From: Streptomyces sp. NBC_00654
Lineage (GTDB): Bacteria; Actinomycetota; Actinomycetes; Streptomycetales; Streptomycetaceae
Length of the DNA stretch: 64,000 nt
Direction: 5' to 3'
Assembly (NCBI RefSeq): GCF_026341775.1
Contig: NZ_JAPEOB010000002.1
Coordinates: 1,984,001-2,048,000, forward strand
Shown piece by piece: positions 5,339 to 12,824 of the stretch. Numbering within the stretch: the stretch's first letter is position 1; the number at the start of each line of letters is the position of its first letter. The position numbers and the translations under genes are program-made. The notes under the pieces are model-generated. The model was given only the letters and a program-made list of their open reading frames with translations, did no database searches and was not told the origin of the DNA.

Positions 5339-5637
5339 GGCTCTCCCCTTCTCCGGAAGCGGGCTCCCTGCGTTCCGCCCCCGCTCGACACCATCGAAAG
5401 TACGCACGAAAACGGGCGCCCGCCAGCAAGGCAGGCCGTACTTACCAGGACTCTGACCTGCGAAGGAAGGGCAGGCTCACCTCTCCTGACCCTCCGTCGG
5501 ACCCGCCCTCGGCCCCTCTTCGGCGCCTCATCCGACTGGCCCTTTTATTGCGCTTGTCAGCCTTTACCCGCGCTCCACGTGGCACAGATCGGACAGGACG
5601 GGAATCAGGACTCCCGGCACGAACGAAGGGCGACGCG
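5339..5637. other. Divergent intergenic region, VIT gene / ARH operon
   Basis: About 300 bases that must hold the promoters for two divergent units. It contains a relatively AT-rich patch around 5540-5570 (CCCTTTTATTGCG) in otherwise GC-rich sequence. No convincing -35/-10 pair, operator dyad or RNA motif was seen. The last 12 bases before the first ARH gene (GAAGGGCGACGCG) include a plausible ribosome binding site. Confidence 0.4.
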
Positions 5638-6894
5638 ATGGAACCGATCGCAGGCAATGACCGGGCCCGGGGTGCGCTGCTGGGGCTCGCCGTCGGGGAC
5701 GCGCTGGGGGCGCCCGCGGAGAATCTCCGGCCGTCCGAGATCCGCCGCCGCTGGGGGCGGATCGAGGGGTTCGTGAGCGACGACCCGGCCGGGACGGACG
5801 ACACGGAGTACGCGATCTTCTCCGGGCTGCTGCTGGCCCGGCACGGCTCGGCGCTCACGGTCGCGCATGTCGAGCGGGCCTGGCACCACTGGATCGCCGA
5901 CCTCGACGAAGGGCCGTTCCGCGGGGCCGGGTTCAGCGAGCGCGGCACGCTGGAGAACCTCCGCCGGGGGCTGGCGGCCCCGATCTCGGCGCAGCACCGG
6001 CACGCCTGGAGCGACGGGCTCGCCATGCGGGCGGCGCCGTTCGGGGTGTTCGCGGCGGGCCGGCCGGCCGAGGCGGCGCGGCTGGTCGCGATCGACGGCC
6101 GGGTGAGCCATGACGGCGAGGGCATCTACGGCGGGCAGGCCGTGGCGGCCGGGGTGGCCGCGGCGATGGTGGGGGCGGGGCTCGCCTCCGTGATCGCCGC
6201 CGCGCTGTCCGTCGTCCCGATGGACTCGTGGACGGCCCGCTCGCTGCGGCGCGCGGTGACGGCCGCTCAGCGCCCCTACCCGGACCGGCTCACCATGGAA
6301 CGCGCGGTGCGTTCGGCCGTGGTGATCGGCGGCTACCCGTGGACGGACCTGGCGCCGGAGGCGGTGGGCCTGGCCTTCGGCGCGCTCACGGCGGCGCGCG
6401 GCGACTTCCGTACGGCGGTGCTGACGGCCGTCAACATGGGCCGCGACGCCGATACGACGGCGGCGGTGGCGGGGGCGCTGGCCGGGGCGCTGAACGGGGC
6501 GGGCGCGATCGAGCCGGACTGGGCGGCGGCGATCGGGCCGGTCCGGGGCAGCTGTCTGCCGTCGATGCGGGGCTACCACGTCCTGGACATCGCGGAACTG
6601 CTGACCCCGGAGGAGCCGGAACCCCCGGCGCGGCGGGAGGAGACGGCGCGGGCCGGGCGGGAGCGGCGGCCGGGGAGTGCGCGGCGGCCGGAGAGCGCGG
6701 GCGCGGACCCAGGGAACACCGGCGCGGACCCGGGGCACACCGGCGCGGATTCGGGGCACACCGGCGCGGGAGAGGGCGCGGACGAGCGGGGCGGGGCGCG
6801 CGGGCCCGGTGCGGCCGGGGAGAGGGTGCGGGACCTGGCACCGGTGTCGGCGTCCTCCGGGCCGGGACGGCCGGGACGGGAGGAGCGGCGATGA
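5638..6894 (+). CDS. ADP-ribosylglycohydrolase-fold protein 1 (complete active-site motifs)
   Basis: 418 residues, first gene of a six-gene overlapping operon. The all-alpha ARH/DraG fold binds two Mg2+ ions through acidic motifs, and all are present: GDALG at 20-24, TDDT at 53-56, HDGEGIYGG near residue 160 and GRDADT ending at residue 273, followed by AGALAGALNG. It should therefore be an active N-glycosidic hydrolase; the substrate (ADP-ribosyl-arginine, ADP-ribose ester or another ribosyl compound) is unknown. The last ~90 residues are a low-complexity Arg/Gly/Ala tail with a 7-residue tandem repeat, unlikely to be part of the fold. ATG 5638 follows GAAGGG. Its TGA overlaps the next ATG. 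Confidence 0.88.
   Translation: MEPIAGNDRARGALLGLAVGDALGAPAENLRPSEIRRRWGRIEGFVSDDPAGTDDTEYAIFSGLLLARHGSALTVAHVERAWHHWIADLDEGPFRGAGFSERGTLENLRRGLAAPISAQHRHAWSDGLAMRAAPFGVFAAGRPAEAARLVAIDGRVSHDGEGIYGGQAVAAGVAAAMVGAGLASVIAAALSVVPMDSWTARSLRRAVTAAQRPYPDRLTMERAVRSAVVIGGYPWTDLAPEAVGLAFGALTAARGDFRTAVLTAVNMGRDADTTAAVAGALAGALNGAGAIEPDWAAAIGPVRGSCLPSMRGYHVLDIAELLTPEEPEPPARREETARAGRERRPGSARRPESAGADPGNTGADPGHTGADSGHTGAGEGADERGGARGPGAAGERVRDLAPVSASSGPGRPGREERR
6700..6762 (+). repeat. Three 21-bp in-frame tandem repeats
   Basis: Three consecutive 21-base units at 6700, 6721 and 6742 encode GADPGNT, GADPGHT and GADSGHT in the C-terminal tail of ARH protein 1. Units differ at a few bases only, which suggests recent slippage expansion. 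Confidence 0.85.
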
Positions 6895-8165
6895 CCACCG
6901 CACGCCGGACCGGCCACCGCGCCGGCTCCCCGCCGGCCGGCCGGGAGCCCCTGTCCGTACTTGTACCCGTCCCCGGCCGCCGGGCCCGGATCGAGGGCCT
7001 GTTGCTCGGGCTGGCCGCCGGGGACGCCGCCGGATGGCCCGCCGCCCGGCACCGGGCGGCCCGGATGCCGGAGTGGACGCGGCGGCTCACCCGGGAGCTG
7101 GACACCTTCGCCGAGCAGAACGCCACCACCACGCTCCCGGTCCCGATCGCCCTCAACCAGCCGCCCGAGCCGCTGCGGCTCGGGCCGTCCGACGACGCCG
7201 AGTGGGCCGCGTTCGCCGCCCGTACGGTGCTGGCCGCCGCGGCGGACCACGCCGACGGCCTCTCCCCCGGCCGGCGGACGCGGGACGCGGTGGACCGGGC
7301 CTGGAACGCGCTGGCCGCCAAAGTCGCCGCGGCCAGCGCACGGGCCCCCGAGGTCGAGGCCGCCGTGCTCCCCCTGCGGGCCCGGATCTCGGTGCGTGCG
7401 GGGCTCGGCAACCTCGCCGCCGGGCTCCGGCCGCCCGCCACCGGCCATGACAACCCGCACTACTTCGACGACGCCGCCTGCGTCCGGGCCGCCGTGCTCG
7501 CCGTCGTCCACCCCGGGGACCCGGCGGCCGCCGCCGGACTCGCCGAGTTCGACGCCCGCTACACCCAGGACGGCGACGGGGTGCACGGCGCGCGGGCCGT
7601 CGCCGCCGCCGTCGCCGAGGCGCTGGCCGGGGCGGACGTCGACACGGTGGTGAACGCCGCGCTCGCCCAGCTCCCCGAGGGCACCGAGATCGCCCGCAAC
7701 GCCGAGCACGCCGTGCGGCTCGCCCGCGCCTTCGCCGACGAGCCGCACGGTGCCTTCGCCCTGGTCCCGGTGCTGGAGCACCAGATCGTCGACCATGTCT
7801 ACAGCTACGGGATCGCGGCGGCCGAGACCGTGCCGGTGGCCCTGGCCCTGACGACCGCGGCCCGCGGCGAGATCGCCCAGGCCGTCCCGGCGGCGGCCTG
7901 TCTGTCCCGGGTCGCCGACTCCGCGCCCGCCCTCGCCGGAGCGCTGACCGGTGCGCTCGGCGGGATCGCCGCCGTACCGGCGGGCTGGCGCGAGGCCTGC
8001 CGCACCCTGGCCGGATGCGCGCTGCCCCGGCTCGCGGGCACGGATCTGATCGAACTCGCCGGGCTGCTGGCAGACACGGAACCGACCCCCACGGGTGGAC
8101 AATTCCGGCATGACGCCCACAACGATCGTCCCTCGGACCTCACCCCCCACGCTCGGGCTCGATGA
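6891..8165 (+). CDS. ADP-ribosylglycohydrolase-fold protein 2, degenerate metal site
   Basis: 424 residues, starting in an ATGA overlap with ARH protein 1 and its closest paralogue. The N-terminal motif is intact (GLAAGDAAG, residues 40-48), but the TDDT motif has become SDDAE, and the C-terminal GRDADT is replaced by SRVADSAPALAG, losing the usual Asp-x-Asp-Thr/Ser metal ligands. The QDGDGVHGARAVAAA segment is kept. The fold is therefore likely kept while the canonical dinuclear Mg2+ site is at least partly lost: a regulatory or scaffold paralogue, or one with altered chemistry. About 35 extra polar residues precede the domain. The gene overlaps its downstream neighbour by 56 bases. Confidence 0.82.
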   Translation: MTTARRTGHRAGSPPAGREPLSVLVPVPGRRARIEGLLLGLAAGDAAGWPAARHRAARMPEWTRRLTRELDTFAEQNATTTLPVPIALNQPPEPLRLGPSDDAEWAAFAARTVLAAAADHADGLSPGRRTRDAVDRAWNALAAKVAAASARAPEVEAAVLPLRARISVRAGLGNLAAGLRPPATGHDNPHYFDDAACVRAAVLAVVHPGDPAAAAGLAEFDARYTQDGDGVHGARAVAAAVAEALAGADVDTVVNAALAQLPEGTEIARNAEHAVRLARAFADEPHGAFALVPVLEHQIVDHVYSYGIAAAETVPVALALTTAARGEIAQAVPAAACLSRVADSAPALAGALTGALGGIAAVPAGWREACRTLAGCALPRLAGTDLIELAGLLADTEPTPTGGQFRHDAHNDRPSDLTPHARAR

Positions 8166-9294
8166 GCGCATCACCGGCGCACTCATCGGCGCCGCGGTCG
8201 GCGACGCGCTCGGCGGCCCCGTCGAGGGCTGGACCCCGGAGCAGATCGCCGAACGCCACGGCGGCCGGGTGCGCGGCATCGTCGGCCCCTGGCACGGCGA
8301 CGACTGGCGCACCGCCCGCCCCATCGCCCCGTACCACAAGGGCGACGGGCACGTCACCGACGACACCCTGATGACCCATGCGCTGATCCGCGTCTACACC
8401 GGCGTCCGCGATCACCTCGACGCCTACGACATCGCCGGTCATCTCGTACCGGACCTGATGTCCCGCCCCCGCTGGATCCCGGAACTGGAGGCCGAGGCGC
8501 TGCCCCTCCAGCGGATCTTCCTTGCCGAGAAGTGGATCGTCGCACGGCTGCACTACGGTCATGCCGACCCGCGCGAGGCGGGCTCCGGGAACATCGTCAA
8601 CTGCGGTGCGGCGATGTACATGGCACCGGTCGGCCTGGTCAACGCCGCCCACCCCGAGGCCGCCTACGCCGAGGCGCTGGAGATCGCGGGGGCTCATCAG
8701 TCCTCGTACGGGCGGGAGGCCGCCGGGGTCTTCGCCGCCGCCGTCGCCGCCGCCTGCGCCCCGGGCGCCACCCCCGCCTCCGTCGTCACGGCCGCGACGG
8801 CGCTGGCCAAGGACGGGACCCGATCCGCGATCGAGGCGGTCCGCGAAGTGGCCGTGCGCCACAGCGACTTCGAGTCGGCGCTGGCCCCCCTGCGCGCCGC
8901 CGTCGCCCCCTTCGACACGGTGGGCCCGGACTACCGCGCCCCCTCCCTCGGCGCCCGCCGGCCCTCCCGGCTGCACTCCATCGAGGAACTGCCCATCGCG
9001 CTCGGCATGCTGCTCGTCGGGGACGGCGACTACCGCCGCACCGTCCTCGGCTCGGTCAACTACGGCCGCGACTGCGACTCGATCGCCACCATGGGCGGTG
9101 CCCTGGCGGGCGCGCTGAACGGCGCGGCGGCGATCCCCGCCGACTGGTCGAAGACGGTCGCCGAGGCCAGCCGCCTCGATCTGCACGCCCCGGCACGGGA
9201 ACTGGCGGAGGTGGCCCGCGAGATCTTCGTACGGGACACCGCCCGCCGCCGGGCGCACGAGTCGGCCTTCGCCGCGCTGGCCGGTGAGCGGTGA
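8110..9294 (+). CDS. ADP-ribosylglycohydrolase-fold protein 3 (canonical motifs)
   Basis: 394 residues with a complete ARH set: GALIGAAVGDALGG near the N-terminus, VTDDTLMTHALI around residue 82, and NYGRDCDSIATMGGALAG around 317, the Asp-Cys-Asp-Ser form found in many bacterial ARH proteins. It is not a close copy of protein 1: it has an insert with PWHGDDWRTARPIAPYHKGDGH between motifs, suggesting a different substrate pocket. I chose ATG 8110, with GGTGG about 11 bases upstream; GTG 8095 is an alternative adding five residues. Either start lies inside the preceding gene, so translation is probably coupled. It ends in a GTGA overlap with the next gene. Confidence 0.85.
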   Translation: MTPTTIVPRTSPPTLGLDERITGALIGAAVGDALGGPVEGWTPEQIAERHGGRVRGIVGPWHGDDWRTARPIAPYHKGDGHVTDDTLMTHALIRVYTGVRDHLDAYDIAGHLVPDLMSRPRWIPELEAEALPLQRIFLAEKWIVARLHYGHADPREAGSGNIVNCGAAMYMAPVGLVNAAHPEAAYAEALEIAGAHQSSYGREAAGVFAAAVAAACAPGATPASVVTAATALAKDGTRSAIEAVREVAVRHSDFESALAPLRAAVAPFDTVGPDYRAPSLGARRPSRLHSIEELPIALGMLLVGDGDYRRTVLGSVNYGRDCDSIATMGGALAGALNGAAAIPADWSKTVAEASRLDLHAPARELAEVAREIFVRDTARRRAHESAFAALAGER

Positions 9295-10658
9295 CCGTCC
9301 GGCTGACCTGGGTGCAGCCCGAGGACCTGGTCGGCCATGAGCTGCGGCAGGCGGCGCAGGACGGCCGGGACGCGCGGGAGATCGAGCGGCGCTGGTACGG
9401 GGCGGGCGGCGCGCCCGCCCCGGAGCGCGCCGGCGCGTCCGAGCCGCCCACCGCACCCCGGCTGCGCGCACTGGCCGAGGAGCTGCTGGACGAACTCGCC
9501 CTGCTGGAATCCCCGTTGGCACCCCATGAGCCGACGGACCTGGCGGCGATCCGGGCGGCCTGTCCGCACTGGCCCGCCCCACCCGCCGGACGGCGTCCGG
9601 CCGATCCGGACCGGCTGCACGCCGCCTGGCTCGGCCGGGCCGCGGGCTGTCTGCTGGGCAAGCCGGTCGAGAAGCTGGAGCTGGCCGGCATCCGTGCCCT
9701 GGCCCGCGCCACCGGCAACTGGCCGCTCACCACCTGGTTCACCGCCAGGGGTGTACCCGCCGCGCTGCTGGAGCGATACCCGTGGAACCGGCGCTCGGCC
9801 GCCACCTCACTGGCCGAGAACATCGACGGCATGCCGGAGGACGACGACCTCGACCACCCCCTGCTCACCGTGCTGTTGCTCCGTCGCCATGGGCGCGGCT
9901 TCACCACGGCCGATCTCGCGCGGCTCTGGCTCGCCGAACTCCCGGCGGGCCGCGTCTTCACCGCCGAGCGCATCGCGTACCGCAATCTGCTGGACGGCAT
10001 CGAGCCGCCGGACACGGCACGCCACCGCAATCCGTTCCGTGAGTGGATCGGCGCCCAGATCCGGGCCGACGCCCATGGCTGGACGCACCCGGGCGACCCG
10101 GCCGCCGCTGCCGCCCAGGCCCACCGGGACGCGGTCCTCACCCACACCGCCAACGGGGTGTACGGGGCGATGTTCACCGCTGCCGCGCTCGCCGAGGCGG
10201 CCGGGGGCGGGAGCGATGTGCACGGGTGCCTGGCGGCCGGGCTGCGGGTGGTCCCGCCCCGCTCCCGGTACGCGCGGGCCGTCCGCCTCGGCATCGCGAC
10301 GGCCCGTGCGGAGGCGGAGTTCGACACGGTGGTGGACCGGCTGCACGCCGTGTACGCGGACACCCACCACTGGGTCCACGTCCTGCCCAACGCCGCGCTG
10401 CTGGCCGCGGCCCTCACCCATGCCGACGGGGACTTCACCCGTTCCGTCGGCTGCGCGGTATCGGGCGGCTGGGACACCGATTCCAACGGGGCGACGGCCG
10501 GTTCGCTCGCGGGACTGCTGGCCGGCCGGCCCGCTGCCCTGCCCGACCGCTTCACCGCCCCGCTGAAGAACCGCCTCGCCACCTCCGTAGCCGGTTTCGA
10601 CTCGACCGGTTTCGACACCCTCGCCGAACTGACCTATCAGGAAGCCACCCGCACATGA
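9291..10658 (+). CDS. ADP-ribosylglycohydrolase-fold protein 4, N-terminally extended and variant
   Basis: 455 residues from a GTG in a GTGA overlap. About 110 N-terminal residues (TWVQPEDLVGHELRQAA and on) precede the ARH core and match no domain I know. In the core the usual GDALG is replaced by GRAAGCLLGKPVE, the TDDT position reads EDDDLDHPLLT near 180, and the C-terminal motif is kept as GGWDTDSNGATAGSLAGLL. So the C-terminal metal ligands remain and the N-terminal ones are altered, roughly the reverse of protein 2. Function unknown. Proteins 2 and 4 could complement each other or act on different substrates, but nothing in the sequence proves that. Confidence 0.82.
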   Translation: MTVRLTWVQPEDLVGHELRQAAQDGRDAREIERRWYGAGGAPAPERAGASEPPTAPRLRALAEELLDELALLESPLAPHEPTDLAAIRAACPHWPAPPAGRRPADPDRLHAAWLGRAAGCLLGKPVEKLELAGIRALARATGNWPLTTWFTARGVPAALLERYPWNRRSAATSLAENIDGMPEDDDLDHPLLTVLLLRRHGRGFTTADLARLWLAELPAGRVFTAERIAYRNLLDGIEPPDTARHRNPFREWIGAQIRADAHGWTHPGDPAAAAAQAHRDAVLTHTANGVYGAMFTAAALAEAAGGGSDVHGCLAAGLRVVPPRSRYARAVRLGIATARAEAEFDTVVDRLHAVYADTHHWVHVLPNAALLAAALTHADGDFTRSVGCAVSGGWDTDSNGATAGSLAGLLAGRPAALPDRFTAPLKNRLATSVAGFDSTGFDTLAELTYQEATRT

Positions 10659-10777
10659 CCGGCATCGCAGCGCTCCCGTGCCCGGGGAGCACGGACGGCC
10701 CCACCCCCTCCCCCGTCCCGCCGCCGCCCGGCGCCTCCCCGTCCATGCCGTACCGAAGCGAGAGCGATGCCGCGTGA
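10655..10777 (+). CDS. Possible 40-residue coupled ORF between ARH4 and the CoA-transferase
   Basis: A 40-codon frame whose ATG lies in an ATGA overlap with the ARH4 stop and whose TGA lies in a GTGA overlap with the GTG of the CoA-transferase. It fills the whole gap between the two genes. 37 of 40 codons end in G or C, like real genes here, although composition alone would favour that. The peptide is Pro/Ser-rich (VPPPPGASPSMPYRSESDAA at the end) with no known domain. The simplest role is to carry ribosomes across the gap (translational coupling); a functional micropeptide is possible. Confidence 0.4.
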   Translation: MTGIAALPCPGSTDGPTPSPVPPPPGASPSMPYRSESDAA

Positions 10778-11973
10778 ATCACCCCGCAGAAGGACCCCTG
10801 ACCGGTCTGAAGGTCCTCGACATCGCCACCCTGTTCGCCGGACCGCTCGCGGCCACGATGCTCGGTGACTTCGGGGCCGAGGTCATCAAGGTCGAGCATC
10901 CGCGCCGCCCCGACCCCTCGCGCGGGCACGGCCCCGCCAAGGACGGCGTCGGACTGTGGTGGAAGCTGCTCGGCCGCAACAAGCGCAATCTGACCCTGGA
11001 CCTGTCCGCCCCCGGCGGCCGGGACGTCCTGCTGCGGCTGGCGGCGGACAGCGATGTGATCATCGAGAACTTCCGGCCGGGAACCCTGGAGCGCTGGGGC
11101 ATCGGCTGGGAGGAGCTGCGGGCCGTCAACCCCCGTCTGGTCCTGGCCCGCGTCACCGGCTTCGGCCAGTTCGGCCCGTACGCGCACCGCCCCGGCTTCG
11201 GCACCCTGGCCGAGGCGATGAGCGGCTTCGCGGCGATCACCGGGGAGCCGGACGGGCCGCCCACCCTGCCGCCGTTCGGGCTCGCCGACTCGATCGCGGC
11301 GCTCGCCACCGCGTACGCGGTGATGGCCGCGCTCGCCGGGCGCGACCGCACCGGCGAGGGCCAGGTCGTCGACCTGGCGATCATCGAACCGATCCTGACG
11401 GTGCTGGGCCCGCAGCCCCTCTGGTACGACCAGCTCGGCTACGTCCAGCAGCGCACCGGGAACCGCTCCCGCAACAACGCCCCGCGCAACACCTACCGCA
11501 CCGGGGACGGCCACTGGGTCGCCGTGTCCACCTCCGCGCAGTCGGTCGCCGAACGGGTCATGCGGCTGGTCGGCCGCCCGGAACTGATCGACGAGCCGTG
11601 GTTCGGCGCGGGCACCACCCGTGCCGAGCACACCGAGGAGCTGGACGAGGCCGTCGGCAACTGGATCGCCCGGCACACCCGGGAGGAGGCCCTGACCGCG
11701 TTCGAGAAGGCGGAGGCGGCCATCGCACCGATCCAGGACGTACGGGAGGTGATGGAGGATCCGCAGTACCGGGCCCTGGACACCCTCACCGAGATCGACG
11801 ACCCGGAGCTGGGGCCCCTGCGGATGCAGAACGTCCTCTTCCGGCTGTCCGGGACACCGGGAGCGATCCGCTGGGCGGGCCGCCCGCACGGCGCGGACAC
11901 CGAGGAGATCCTCGCCGGGCTCGGCCTGTCGGCCCCCGACATCATGGATCTGCGCGCACAGGGAGCCCTGTGA
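10774..11973 (+). CDS. CaiB/BaiF-type (family III) CoA-transferase
   Basis: 399 residues. Family III CoA-transferases move CoA between carboxylic acids through an aspartyl-CoA thioester. Family features seen: LTGLKVLDIATLFAGPLAATMLGDFGAEVIKVE at the start, NKRNLTLDL, the VIIENFRPGTLERWG segment, and the C-terminal GRPHGADTEEILAGLGL. GTG 10774 is the only start that removes an unconserved leader encoded in the upstream gap. It ends in a GTGA overlap with the CoA lyase gene, so the two products probably act in sequence: activation of an acid to its CoA ester, then cleavage or hydrolysis. The acid substrate cannot be read from sequence. Confidence 0.88.
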   Translation: MNHPAEGPLTGLKVLDIATLFAGPLAATMLGDFGAEVIKVEHPRRPDPSRGHGPAKDGVGLWWKLLGRNKRNLTLDLSAPGGRDVLLRLAADSDVIIENFRPGTLERWGIGWEELRAVNPRLVLARVTGFGQFGPYAHRPGFGTLAEAMSGFAAITGEPDGPPTLPPFGLADSIAALATAYAVMAALAGRDRTGEGQVVDLAIIEPILTVLGPQPLWYDQLGYVQQRTGNRSRNNAPRNTYRTGDGHWVAVSTSAQSVAERVMRLVGRPELIDEPWFGAGTTRAEHTEELDEAVGNWIARHTREEALTAFEKAEAAIAPIQDVREVMEDPQYRALDTLTEIDDPELGPLRMQNVLFRLSGTPGAIRWAGRPHGADTEEILAGLGLSAPDIMDLRAQGAL

Positions 11974-12824
11974 CCTCCCTGTTCGTCCCCCTGACCTGGC
12001 TCTACGTACCCGGGGACCGGCCGGACGTGGTGCGCAAGGCACTCGGCTCGGGAGCGGACGTGGTGATCGTCGACCTGGAGGACGCGGTCGCACCGGACCG
12101 CAAGGAGTACGCGCGGGCGGCCACCGCCGAACTCCTCGCCGACCCGGTCACCGCCGCCCCGGGCACGGTACCGGTCCATGTCCGGGTGCACGGCGAGGAC
12201 GACGTACGGGCCCTGGCCGGGCTGCCGGGTCTCTCCGGTCTGCGGCTGCCGAAGATCACGCATTCGGTCTCCGTGCACCATGTGGCGGCGGTGGCCCCCG
12301 GTGTGCCGCTGTATCCGCTGCTCGAATCGGCGCTCGCGATCGAGCACGCCTACTCGATCGCGACGGCCCACGCGGAGGTGCGGGGCATCGGACTGGGCGA
12401 GGCCGACCTCCGGGCCGATCTGGGTGTACGGGAGGACGCCGGGCTGGACTGGCCGCGCAGCCGTACCGTGGTCGCCGCGCGGGCCGCCGGTCTGCCGCCG
12501 CCCGCGCAGTCGGTCTTCCCGGACGTCCGGGACCTGGACGGGCTGTGGACGTCCTGCGGCCGGGCGCGGGCGCTGGGGATGCTCGGCCGGGCGGCGATCC
12601 ACCCCCGGCAGCTGGCGGTGATCGAGCGGGCCTTCCTGCCGACGGCGCGGGAGATCGAGGCGGCCGAGGAGATCGTGGCCGCCTCGGCGGTGGACGCGGG
12701 TGCGCTGGCGCTGCCGGACGGGAGGTTCGTGGACGCGGCGGTGGTGGCATCGGCGCGCCGGACACTGGCCCTGGGACAGCGGAACGCCGGACGGGTCGGC
12801 AGTACCGATCCGTCCGGCGTCTGA
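11970..12824 (+). CDS. HpcH/HpaI-family CoA ester lyase (CitE-like)
   Basis: 284 residues, TIM-barrel family of citrate lyase beta subunit, malyl-CoA and related lyases or thioesterases. Motifs: LYVPGDRPDVVRKAL, the Mg2+-binding region DVVIVDLEDAVAPDRK with conserved Glu and Asp, RLPKITH, LLESALAIEHAYSIA, GEADLRADLG and GRAAIHPRQLAVIERAF. No citE operon partners (citD, citF) are nearby, so this is a stand-alone CitE-like enzyme and not citrate lyase. The GTG at 11970 overlaps the CoA-transferase stop. It is the last gene of the operon and is convergent with lgt. Confidence 0.88.
   Translation: MTSLFVPLTWLYVPGDRPDVVRKALGSGADVVIVDLEDAVAPDRKEYARAATAELLADPVTAAPGTVPVHVRVHGEDDVRALAGLPGLSGLRLPKITHSVSVHHVAAVAPGVPLYPLLESALAIEHAYSIATAHAEVRGIGLGEADLRADLGVREDAGLDWPRSRTVVAARAAGLPPPAQSVFPDVRDLDGLWTSCGRARALGMLGRAAIHPRQLAVIERAFLPTAREIEAAEEIVAASAVDAGALALPDGRFVDAAVVASARRTLALGQRNAGRVGSTDPSGV

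Follow-up and report, generated by a model that had tools for sequence, protein, structure and literature searches.

Four ADP-ribosylglycohydrolase paralogues of Streptomyces sp. NBC_00654 in a candidate operon for the breakdown of an imported riboside

Results

Based on a Pfam profile search we found that a stretch of DNA from Streptomyces sp. NBC_00654 carries, at 5638-12824, six plus-strand genes: four paralogues of the ADP-ribosylglycohydrolase (ARH) family PF03747, here called ARH1 to ARH4, a family III CoA-transferase (CoA_transf_3) and a CitE-like lyase (HpcH_HpaI) (Table 1). The stretch, referred to as the window, has 64,000 nucleotides (nt) and corresponds to positions 1,984,001-2,048,000 of contig NZ_JAPEOB010000002.1 (GCF_026341775.1); all coordinates are those of the window. 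These Pfam matches, all on the plus strand, bear out the original prediction, which had described four consecutive ARH-fold genes followed by the two CoA genes. It had also described all six as joined by overlaps. This holds for ARH1/ARH2 (4 nt), ARH2/ARH3 (56 nt), ARH3/ARH4 (4 nt) and CoA-transferase/lyase (4 nt), but a gap of 115 nt separates the ARH4 stop (10658) from the GTG start of the CoA-transferase (10774). The likelier start of ARH3 is the ATG at 8110 rather than the GTG at 8095. The genome of the strain contains eight PF03747 matches in total, four of them in this operon.

Table 1. Features of the operon in the window
Feature	Position	Strand	Characteristics
ARH1	5638..6894	+	PF03747; TDD and DADT motifs
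ARH2	6891..8165	+	Divergent PF03747 paralogue; SDD kept, RVADS versus D-x-D-T/S in the others
ARH3	8110..9294	+	PF03747; TDD and DCDS motifs
ARH4	9291..10658	+	MPEDDD-type PF03747; N-terminal extension of ~110 residues
Putative ribokinase scar	10655..10777	+	41-codon open reading frame including stop; 4-nt overlap with each neighbour
Family III (CaiB-type) CoA-transferase	10774..11973	+	GTG start; PF02515
CitE/RipC-like C-C lyase	11970..12824	+	HpcH_HpaI

Comparison with relatives revealed a longer, complete form of the operon, which consists of a LacI regulator, two ABC permeases, a CUT1 solute-binding protein (SBP), ARH1 to ARH4, a ribokinase, the CoA-transferase and the lyase; the regulator was assigned to the LacI type and the SBP to the CUT1 type (PF01547/PF13416) with Pfam. 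Regulator, permeases and SBP stand directly before the first ARH gene in 6 of the 18 Streptomycetaceae loci other than the window. They do so too in 3 of 80 named loci, which were the best 80 among 392 confirmed ones and came from Streptomyces with two exceptions, and in 29 of 34 loci fetched from outside Streptomycetaceae (L139-L172), which makes 38 of the 132 loci examined. The whole eleven-gene order through the lyase was found in 22 of the 34 other-family loci, and L155 shows a contiguous run from lacI to the lyase. Of the three named loci concerned, L100, L102 and L107, two have regulator and transporter between ARH1 and VIT1, a gene that also flanks the window operon, and this arrangement bridges the two operon layouts. 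Near the lacI start, 37 of the 38 loci (the exception being L168) have a CG-centred palindrome with AA or TT beside the centre that scores at least 6 of 8 pairs; among 7600 pieces drawn at random from these loci, 230 reach that score. Exact copies of the 16-mer CTGTAAACGTTTACAG are present in 7 of 188 loci and always lie upstream of lacI. The palindrome is predicted to be the operator of the LacI regulator, which would in this way control the operon.

The ribokinase gene lies between ARH4 and the CoA-transferase in 70 of 77 named loci, in 14 of the 18 other Streptomycetaceae loci and in all 22 scored loci of other families. These counts include only loci with both flanking genes above a set score floor; L163, which has ARH4, a CoA-transferase cut by the end of the stretch and no ribokinase match, was below this floor. 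Of 14 relatives, 12 show a 4-nt overlap of the kinase gene with ARH4, and 7 show one of the same length with the CoA-transferase. The original prediction had stated that no kinase is in the unit, which is correct for the window strain and a minority of relatives, but most relatives carry the ribokinase. Ribokinase was the best NCBIfam family for both kinases scanned (L051 and L055), and the L051 kinase passes the cut-off of TIGR02152 (307.9 versus 299.65), which that of L055 narrowly misses. The best PDB matches of the kinase are solved ribokinases, and the GGKGAN motif is kept in 15 of 15 Streptomycetaceae kinase matches.

Judged from its sequence, the short open reading frame between ARH4 and the CoA-transferase of the window is an in-frame remnant of this ribokinase gene. 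Compared with the S. anulatus locus L075, it keeps the first ~21 nt of the kinase (82.9% identity over 70 nt including the ARH4 end) and the last ~45 nt, where the match runs into the CoA-transferase (86.8% over 136 nt). A middle piece matches at 77% over 53 nt, a weak match for which E-values up to 10 were allowed, and keeps its register in 11 of 15 loci listed. Another ribokinase-like gene (51% identity) is present elsewhere in the window genome, and L105, recorded as S. violaceoruber, likewise has the operon without ribokinase. Since the kinase is gone or unmatched in several loci and ARH4 is also absent from L161, both can be regarded as accessory. In three loci the gap between kinase and CoA-transferase was read, and each has a protein of ~640 residues there (L145:4208-6127 and equivalents in L141 and L148); the one scanned with Pfam has a C-terminal domain of the FGE-sulfatase type, and its N-terminal part gave no Pfam match.

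Among 81 Streptomycetaceae genomes, ARH2 matches of at least 61% identity were found in 19 and lyase matches of at least 68% identity in exactly the same 19, and the six genes have one order in all 19, window genome included. The order ARH2-ARH3-ARH4-CoA-transferase-lyase was seen in 77 of the 80 named loci; L083 has no ARH4, and L111 and L117 show no CoA-transferase, the former stopping at the short end of its contig and the latter lying near a contig end. Of 394 genomes sampled at class level, 63 matched the ARH2 profile: in the genus 30 of 40, among them G398 with no more than a weak ARH1-like piece, and outside it 33 of 354. A phylum sample of 296 genomes gave eight matches, all in the same genus, and no new group. 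Adjacency of the genes is not confined to close relatives, as the operon genes also occur in three further family-level groups and in a Candidatus Nanopelagicaceae metagenome-assembled genome (L161). The latter has a reduced form with LacI, transporter, ARH3, ARH1, ARH2, CoA-transferase and lyase, and gave no match to ARH4 or ribokinase. L163 has its CoA genes upstream of lacI and ARH3 as first ARH gene.

CoA-transferase and lyase are nearby in 24 of the 34 other-family loci, while three (L139, L153 and L171) reach contig edges before the CoA genes. The ARH set without CoA genes was found in 0 of 19 Streptomycetaceae and in 2 of 26 uncut loci of the same type elsewhere. Five loci (L146, L158-L160 and L162) are of a second type with an ARH1-ARH2-like pair; in L159 a CoA-transferase is ~8 kb away. 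The second operon of L146 (263-9503 and 13014-14969; record G205) consists of LacI, an ARH4-like gene, a CUT1 SBP, permeases and a ribokinase-like gene, with the pair in divergent orientation, and near it lies an ARH-family protein whose N-terminus was judged by eye to resemble a signal peptide. Across 54 loci, with every sixth named locus included, pairwise identities of the operon genes correlate with r from 0.65 to 0.98, uncorrected for phylogeny. Chance adjacency of the genes was rejected, based on the co-occurrence of ARH2 and lyase, the one gene order in 19 of 19 genomes and its conservation across families.

All four ARH proteins scored well above the PF03747 gathering score of 26.2 (118.8 to 202.4 bits; E-values 1.6e-59, 4.8e-34, 2.4e-52 and 6.1e-48 for ARH1 to ARH4). 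ARH1 and ARH3 stay below the cut-offs of DraG (TIGR02662; 67.0 and 52.7 versus 337.05) and Tri1 (NF041672; 46.0 and 42.8 versus 490), and ARH2 and ARH4 gave no match to either family. The closest solved relative of ARH1 is DraG (2woe), and no sequence match in PDB was obtained for ARH4. The models of ARH2 and ARH4 (pLDDT 69.6, which is moderate with loops under 50, and 86.5, respectively) have the known hydrolases ARH3 and DraG as best structural matches, with TM scores by query length of ~0.5. The metal-binding Asp motifs of ARH1, ARH3 and ARH4 are intact in all 18 Streptomycetaceae loci other than the window; in the motif listing of the named loci, the ARH1 row includes loci without ARH1, where ARH2 was matched. 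ARH2 has RVADS or RIADS as C-terminal motif in the same 18 of 18 loci, the first Asp being replaced by Val or Ile, and none of the 30 readable loci among the 34 from other families has Asp at that site. The ARH2 alignment comprised 11 of the 19 loci, the frames of the others running past or containing stops. ARH2 is perhaps a partner or an altered enzyme. L057 and L058 contain ARH4-like genes without the transporter, kinase or CoA-transferase genes of the operon in the stretch examined, so ARH4 alone is no marker of the pathway; in L057 a 27% lyase match lies ~5 kb away.

The CoA-transferase matches PF02515 with 417.6 bits (gathering score 23.3; E 6.2e-125) and the lyase HpcH_HpaI with E 2.6e-25. 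The best NCBIfam family of the lyase is the RipC/Ccl citramalyl-CoA lyase (NF038242), at 136.9 below the cut-off of 375, and its best PDB relatives are 9nzb and 8khl, which we take to be RipC. The conserved Asp of LADSIAAL in the CoA-transferase is presumably catalytic; this residue and the acidic residues of the lyase are kept in all 18 Streptomycetaceae loci. Relatives of the two enzymes (67% and 46% identity) adjoin MmgE/PrpD genes in L185 and L186, with no ARH genes. An Asp/Glu racemase was confirmed in the neighbourhood of the L185 pair, and a flavoprotein and an MFS transporter are found in that of L186. These are probably organic-acid clusters, and their gene content fits a di- or tricarboxylate substrate.

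Elsewhere in the window genome, on contig C1, permeases and an SBP of the operon type were found (68, 67 and 57% identity; next SBP 27%). No LacI orthologue was found in the genome (best match 39%), and the palindrome associated with LacI, looked for in the window, was not found. An SBP orthologue is present in 14 of the 19 Streptomycetaceae genomes with the operon versus 2 of 62 without it. The window operon looks like the enzyme half of a split operon, with its transporter elsewhere in the genome. The two SBP-positive genomes without the ARH operon (L183 and L184) have permeases and SBP and no other operon gene in the stretches fetched. According to Pfam, the operon is flanked by the VIT1 gene, which is divergent, on one side and by a convergent lgt gene on the other; trpA-, trpB- and trpC-like open reading frames, assigned by eye, lie downstream. 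The interval between VIT1 and ARH1 (5421-5589) contains the conserved blocks CCAGCAAG (58 of 67 upstream regions) and GTGGCACA (35 of 67), which possibly represent a control site that replaced LacI.

Discussion

We propose, with a probability of roughly 0.62, that the unit in the window represents the enzyme half of an operon whose products catabolise an imported riboside. The ABC system would import a ribose-containing glycoside, and the ARH proteins would act as riboside hydrolases, not as ADP-ribosyl hydrolases, splitting free ribose from the aglycone. The ribokinase would convert ribose to ribose 5-phosphate. The aglycone, most likely a dicarboxylate of the malate or citramalate type, would receive CoA from the transferase, and the lyase would cleave the product to acetyl-CoA and a 2-oxo acid. 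The original prediction had suggested degradation of a ribosylated small molecule with transfer of its acid part to CoA, and this gains support from the ribokinase, CUT1 importer and LacI regulator that relatives add. The shared distribution of ARH2 and lyase, the single gene order, the palindrome near lacI, the transporter retained in the window genome, the CoA-transferase/lyase pairs of the organic-acid clusters and the second operon of L146 also speak for our proposal. ADP-ribose was rejected as the released product, since the contiguous operon of L155 leaves no space for a Nudix gene and ribokinase uses free ribose. Ribazole, arsenosugars, nucleosides and siderophores were considered as substrate candidates and dropped, as none fits both halves.

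Several points weigh against this proposal. Gene content, order, co-occurrence, conserved motifs, palindrome and scar were seen directly, but the chemistry of each step, the regulation and the identity of the substrate are inferred. Free ribose as product leans mainly on the kinase, and the window strain, 7 of 77 named loci and 4 of the 18 other Streptomycetaceae loci have lost this gene; no match to it was found in L161, L163, L153 and L154, and the kinase of L055, one of the two scanned, is with 298.3 narrowly under the TIGR02152 cut-off. CoA-transferase and lyase are under every NCBIfam equivalog cut-off, L151 and L154 have no CoA genes within the stretch examined, and five of the 19 operon genomes have no SBP orthologue. 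The orthologue cut-offs for ARH2 and lyase were chosen after the hits were seen. With a looser cut-off 26 of the 81 genomes have a lyase match, 7 of them only at 43-48%, and 23 have an ARH2 match, 4 of them only at 27-35% and via ARH4-like genes. The Fisher values for co-occurrence, 6.6e-19 over the 81 genomes and 1.1e-8 outside the genus (6/0/0/60), ignore phylogeny.

It is unlikely that the four proteins are true ADP-ribosyl hydrolases that reverse the ADP-ribosylation of protein, nucleic acid or metabolites, with the CoA genes as chance or regulatory neighbours, although the Pfam family, the fold and the intact Asp motifs in three of the four ARHs fit such a role. The S. coelicolor genes SCO2028-SCO2031 are presumably the orthologues of ARH1-ARH4, as judged from the locus. 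They are referred to as uncharacterised DraG/ARH homologues in the relevant part of PMC9411070, and three of them are included among putative ADP-ribose hydrolases in that of PMC5087735. However, neither SCO2028 nor SCO2030 showed activity on uracil-ADP-ribose, the sole substrate assayed in the part of PMC13036486 that concerns them, and ribokinase, CUT1 importer and LacI-type regulator belong to the unit. Moreover, the contiguous operon of L155 leaves no room for a transferase or macrodomain gene, wider flanks not having been searched, and the earlier idea that the operon regulates a pathway by reversible modification is unsupported on the same ground.

Unlikely to a similar degree is a catabolic operon for the glycoside of a furanose other than ribose, on which the kinase would act. 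The CUT1 type of the SBP, the additional protein with the FGE-type domain in some loci and the fact that one kinase of two clears the ribokinase cut-off would agree with it, whereas the family assignment of both kinases, the conserved GGKGAN motif and the PDB matches all point to ribokinase. Lower still we place a separate organic-acid pathway that shares with the ARH genes nothing but the promoter, which seems quite improbable. The homologous pairs beside MmgE/PrpD genes and the loci L151 and L154 speak for it; against it, a lyase of at least 68% identity never occurs without ARH2 in the 81 genomes, and CoA-transferase and lyase are retained in L161, whose reduced form is without kinase and ARH4.

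The riboside operon proposed here shares features with several known systems. Its ARH proteins resemble the DraG/ARH3 hydrolases in family, fold and the Asp motifs of ARH1, ARH3 and ARH4, and differ from them in the low TIGR02662 scores, the catabolic surroundings and the one Asp that ARH2 lacks. LacI-regulated CUT1 carbohydrate operons that include a ribokinase likewise unite a regulator, a palindrome, an importer, hydrolases and a kinase; here, the hydrolases are ARH-fold proteins and an arm with CoA-transferase and lyase is added. The itaconate/citramalate route ends in RipC/Ccl, to which the best matches of the lyase belong, but the lyase score is below the cut-off of that family, the transferase is of family III and there is no hydratase in the unit; the remaining steps of that route are taken as general background. 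The nearest analogue appears to be E. coli yegTUV, which, as described in the relevant part of PMC10819704, places a small-molecule transporter together with a predicted ARH-family protein and a predicted sugar kinase. By that description, and not by sequence, it is likened to the present operon, from which it differs in that the transporter is of the MFS type, a single ARH is present and CoA genes are missing. Among the papers covered by a literature search none was found that names ADP-ribosylglycohydrolase, CoA transferase and citrate lyase together, and further searches for a known link gave nothing beyond the ADP-ribosylation papers cited above. The terms ADP-ribosyl, glycohydrolase, ribokinase and Streptomyces are all absent from the main text of a 2014 survey of LacI regulons.

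Conclusions

The usual annotation of the four genes as removers of ADP-ribose is probably misleading. More tentatively, and with clear doubt, hydrolysis of imported ribosides, rather than the reversal of ADP-ribosylation, may be a recurring job of bacterial ARH proteins. The operon would encode a pathway not described so far, by which several actinobacterial families and at least one lineage of Nanopelagicaceae use a widespread riboside whose aglycone is a dicarboxylate, and ARH2 would assist ARH1 as a one-metal or regulatory partner. The S. coelicolor homologues have been taken as evidence of a lively ADP-ribosylation metabolism in the part of PMC5087735 that deals with them. If they are riboside hydrolases, that count of ADP-ribosylation genes would be inflated and many ARH annotations would need review. 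The SBP and LacI of the complete operons would offer a screenable handle on the ligand, an apparently common nutrient.

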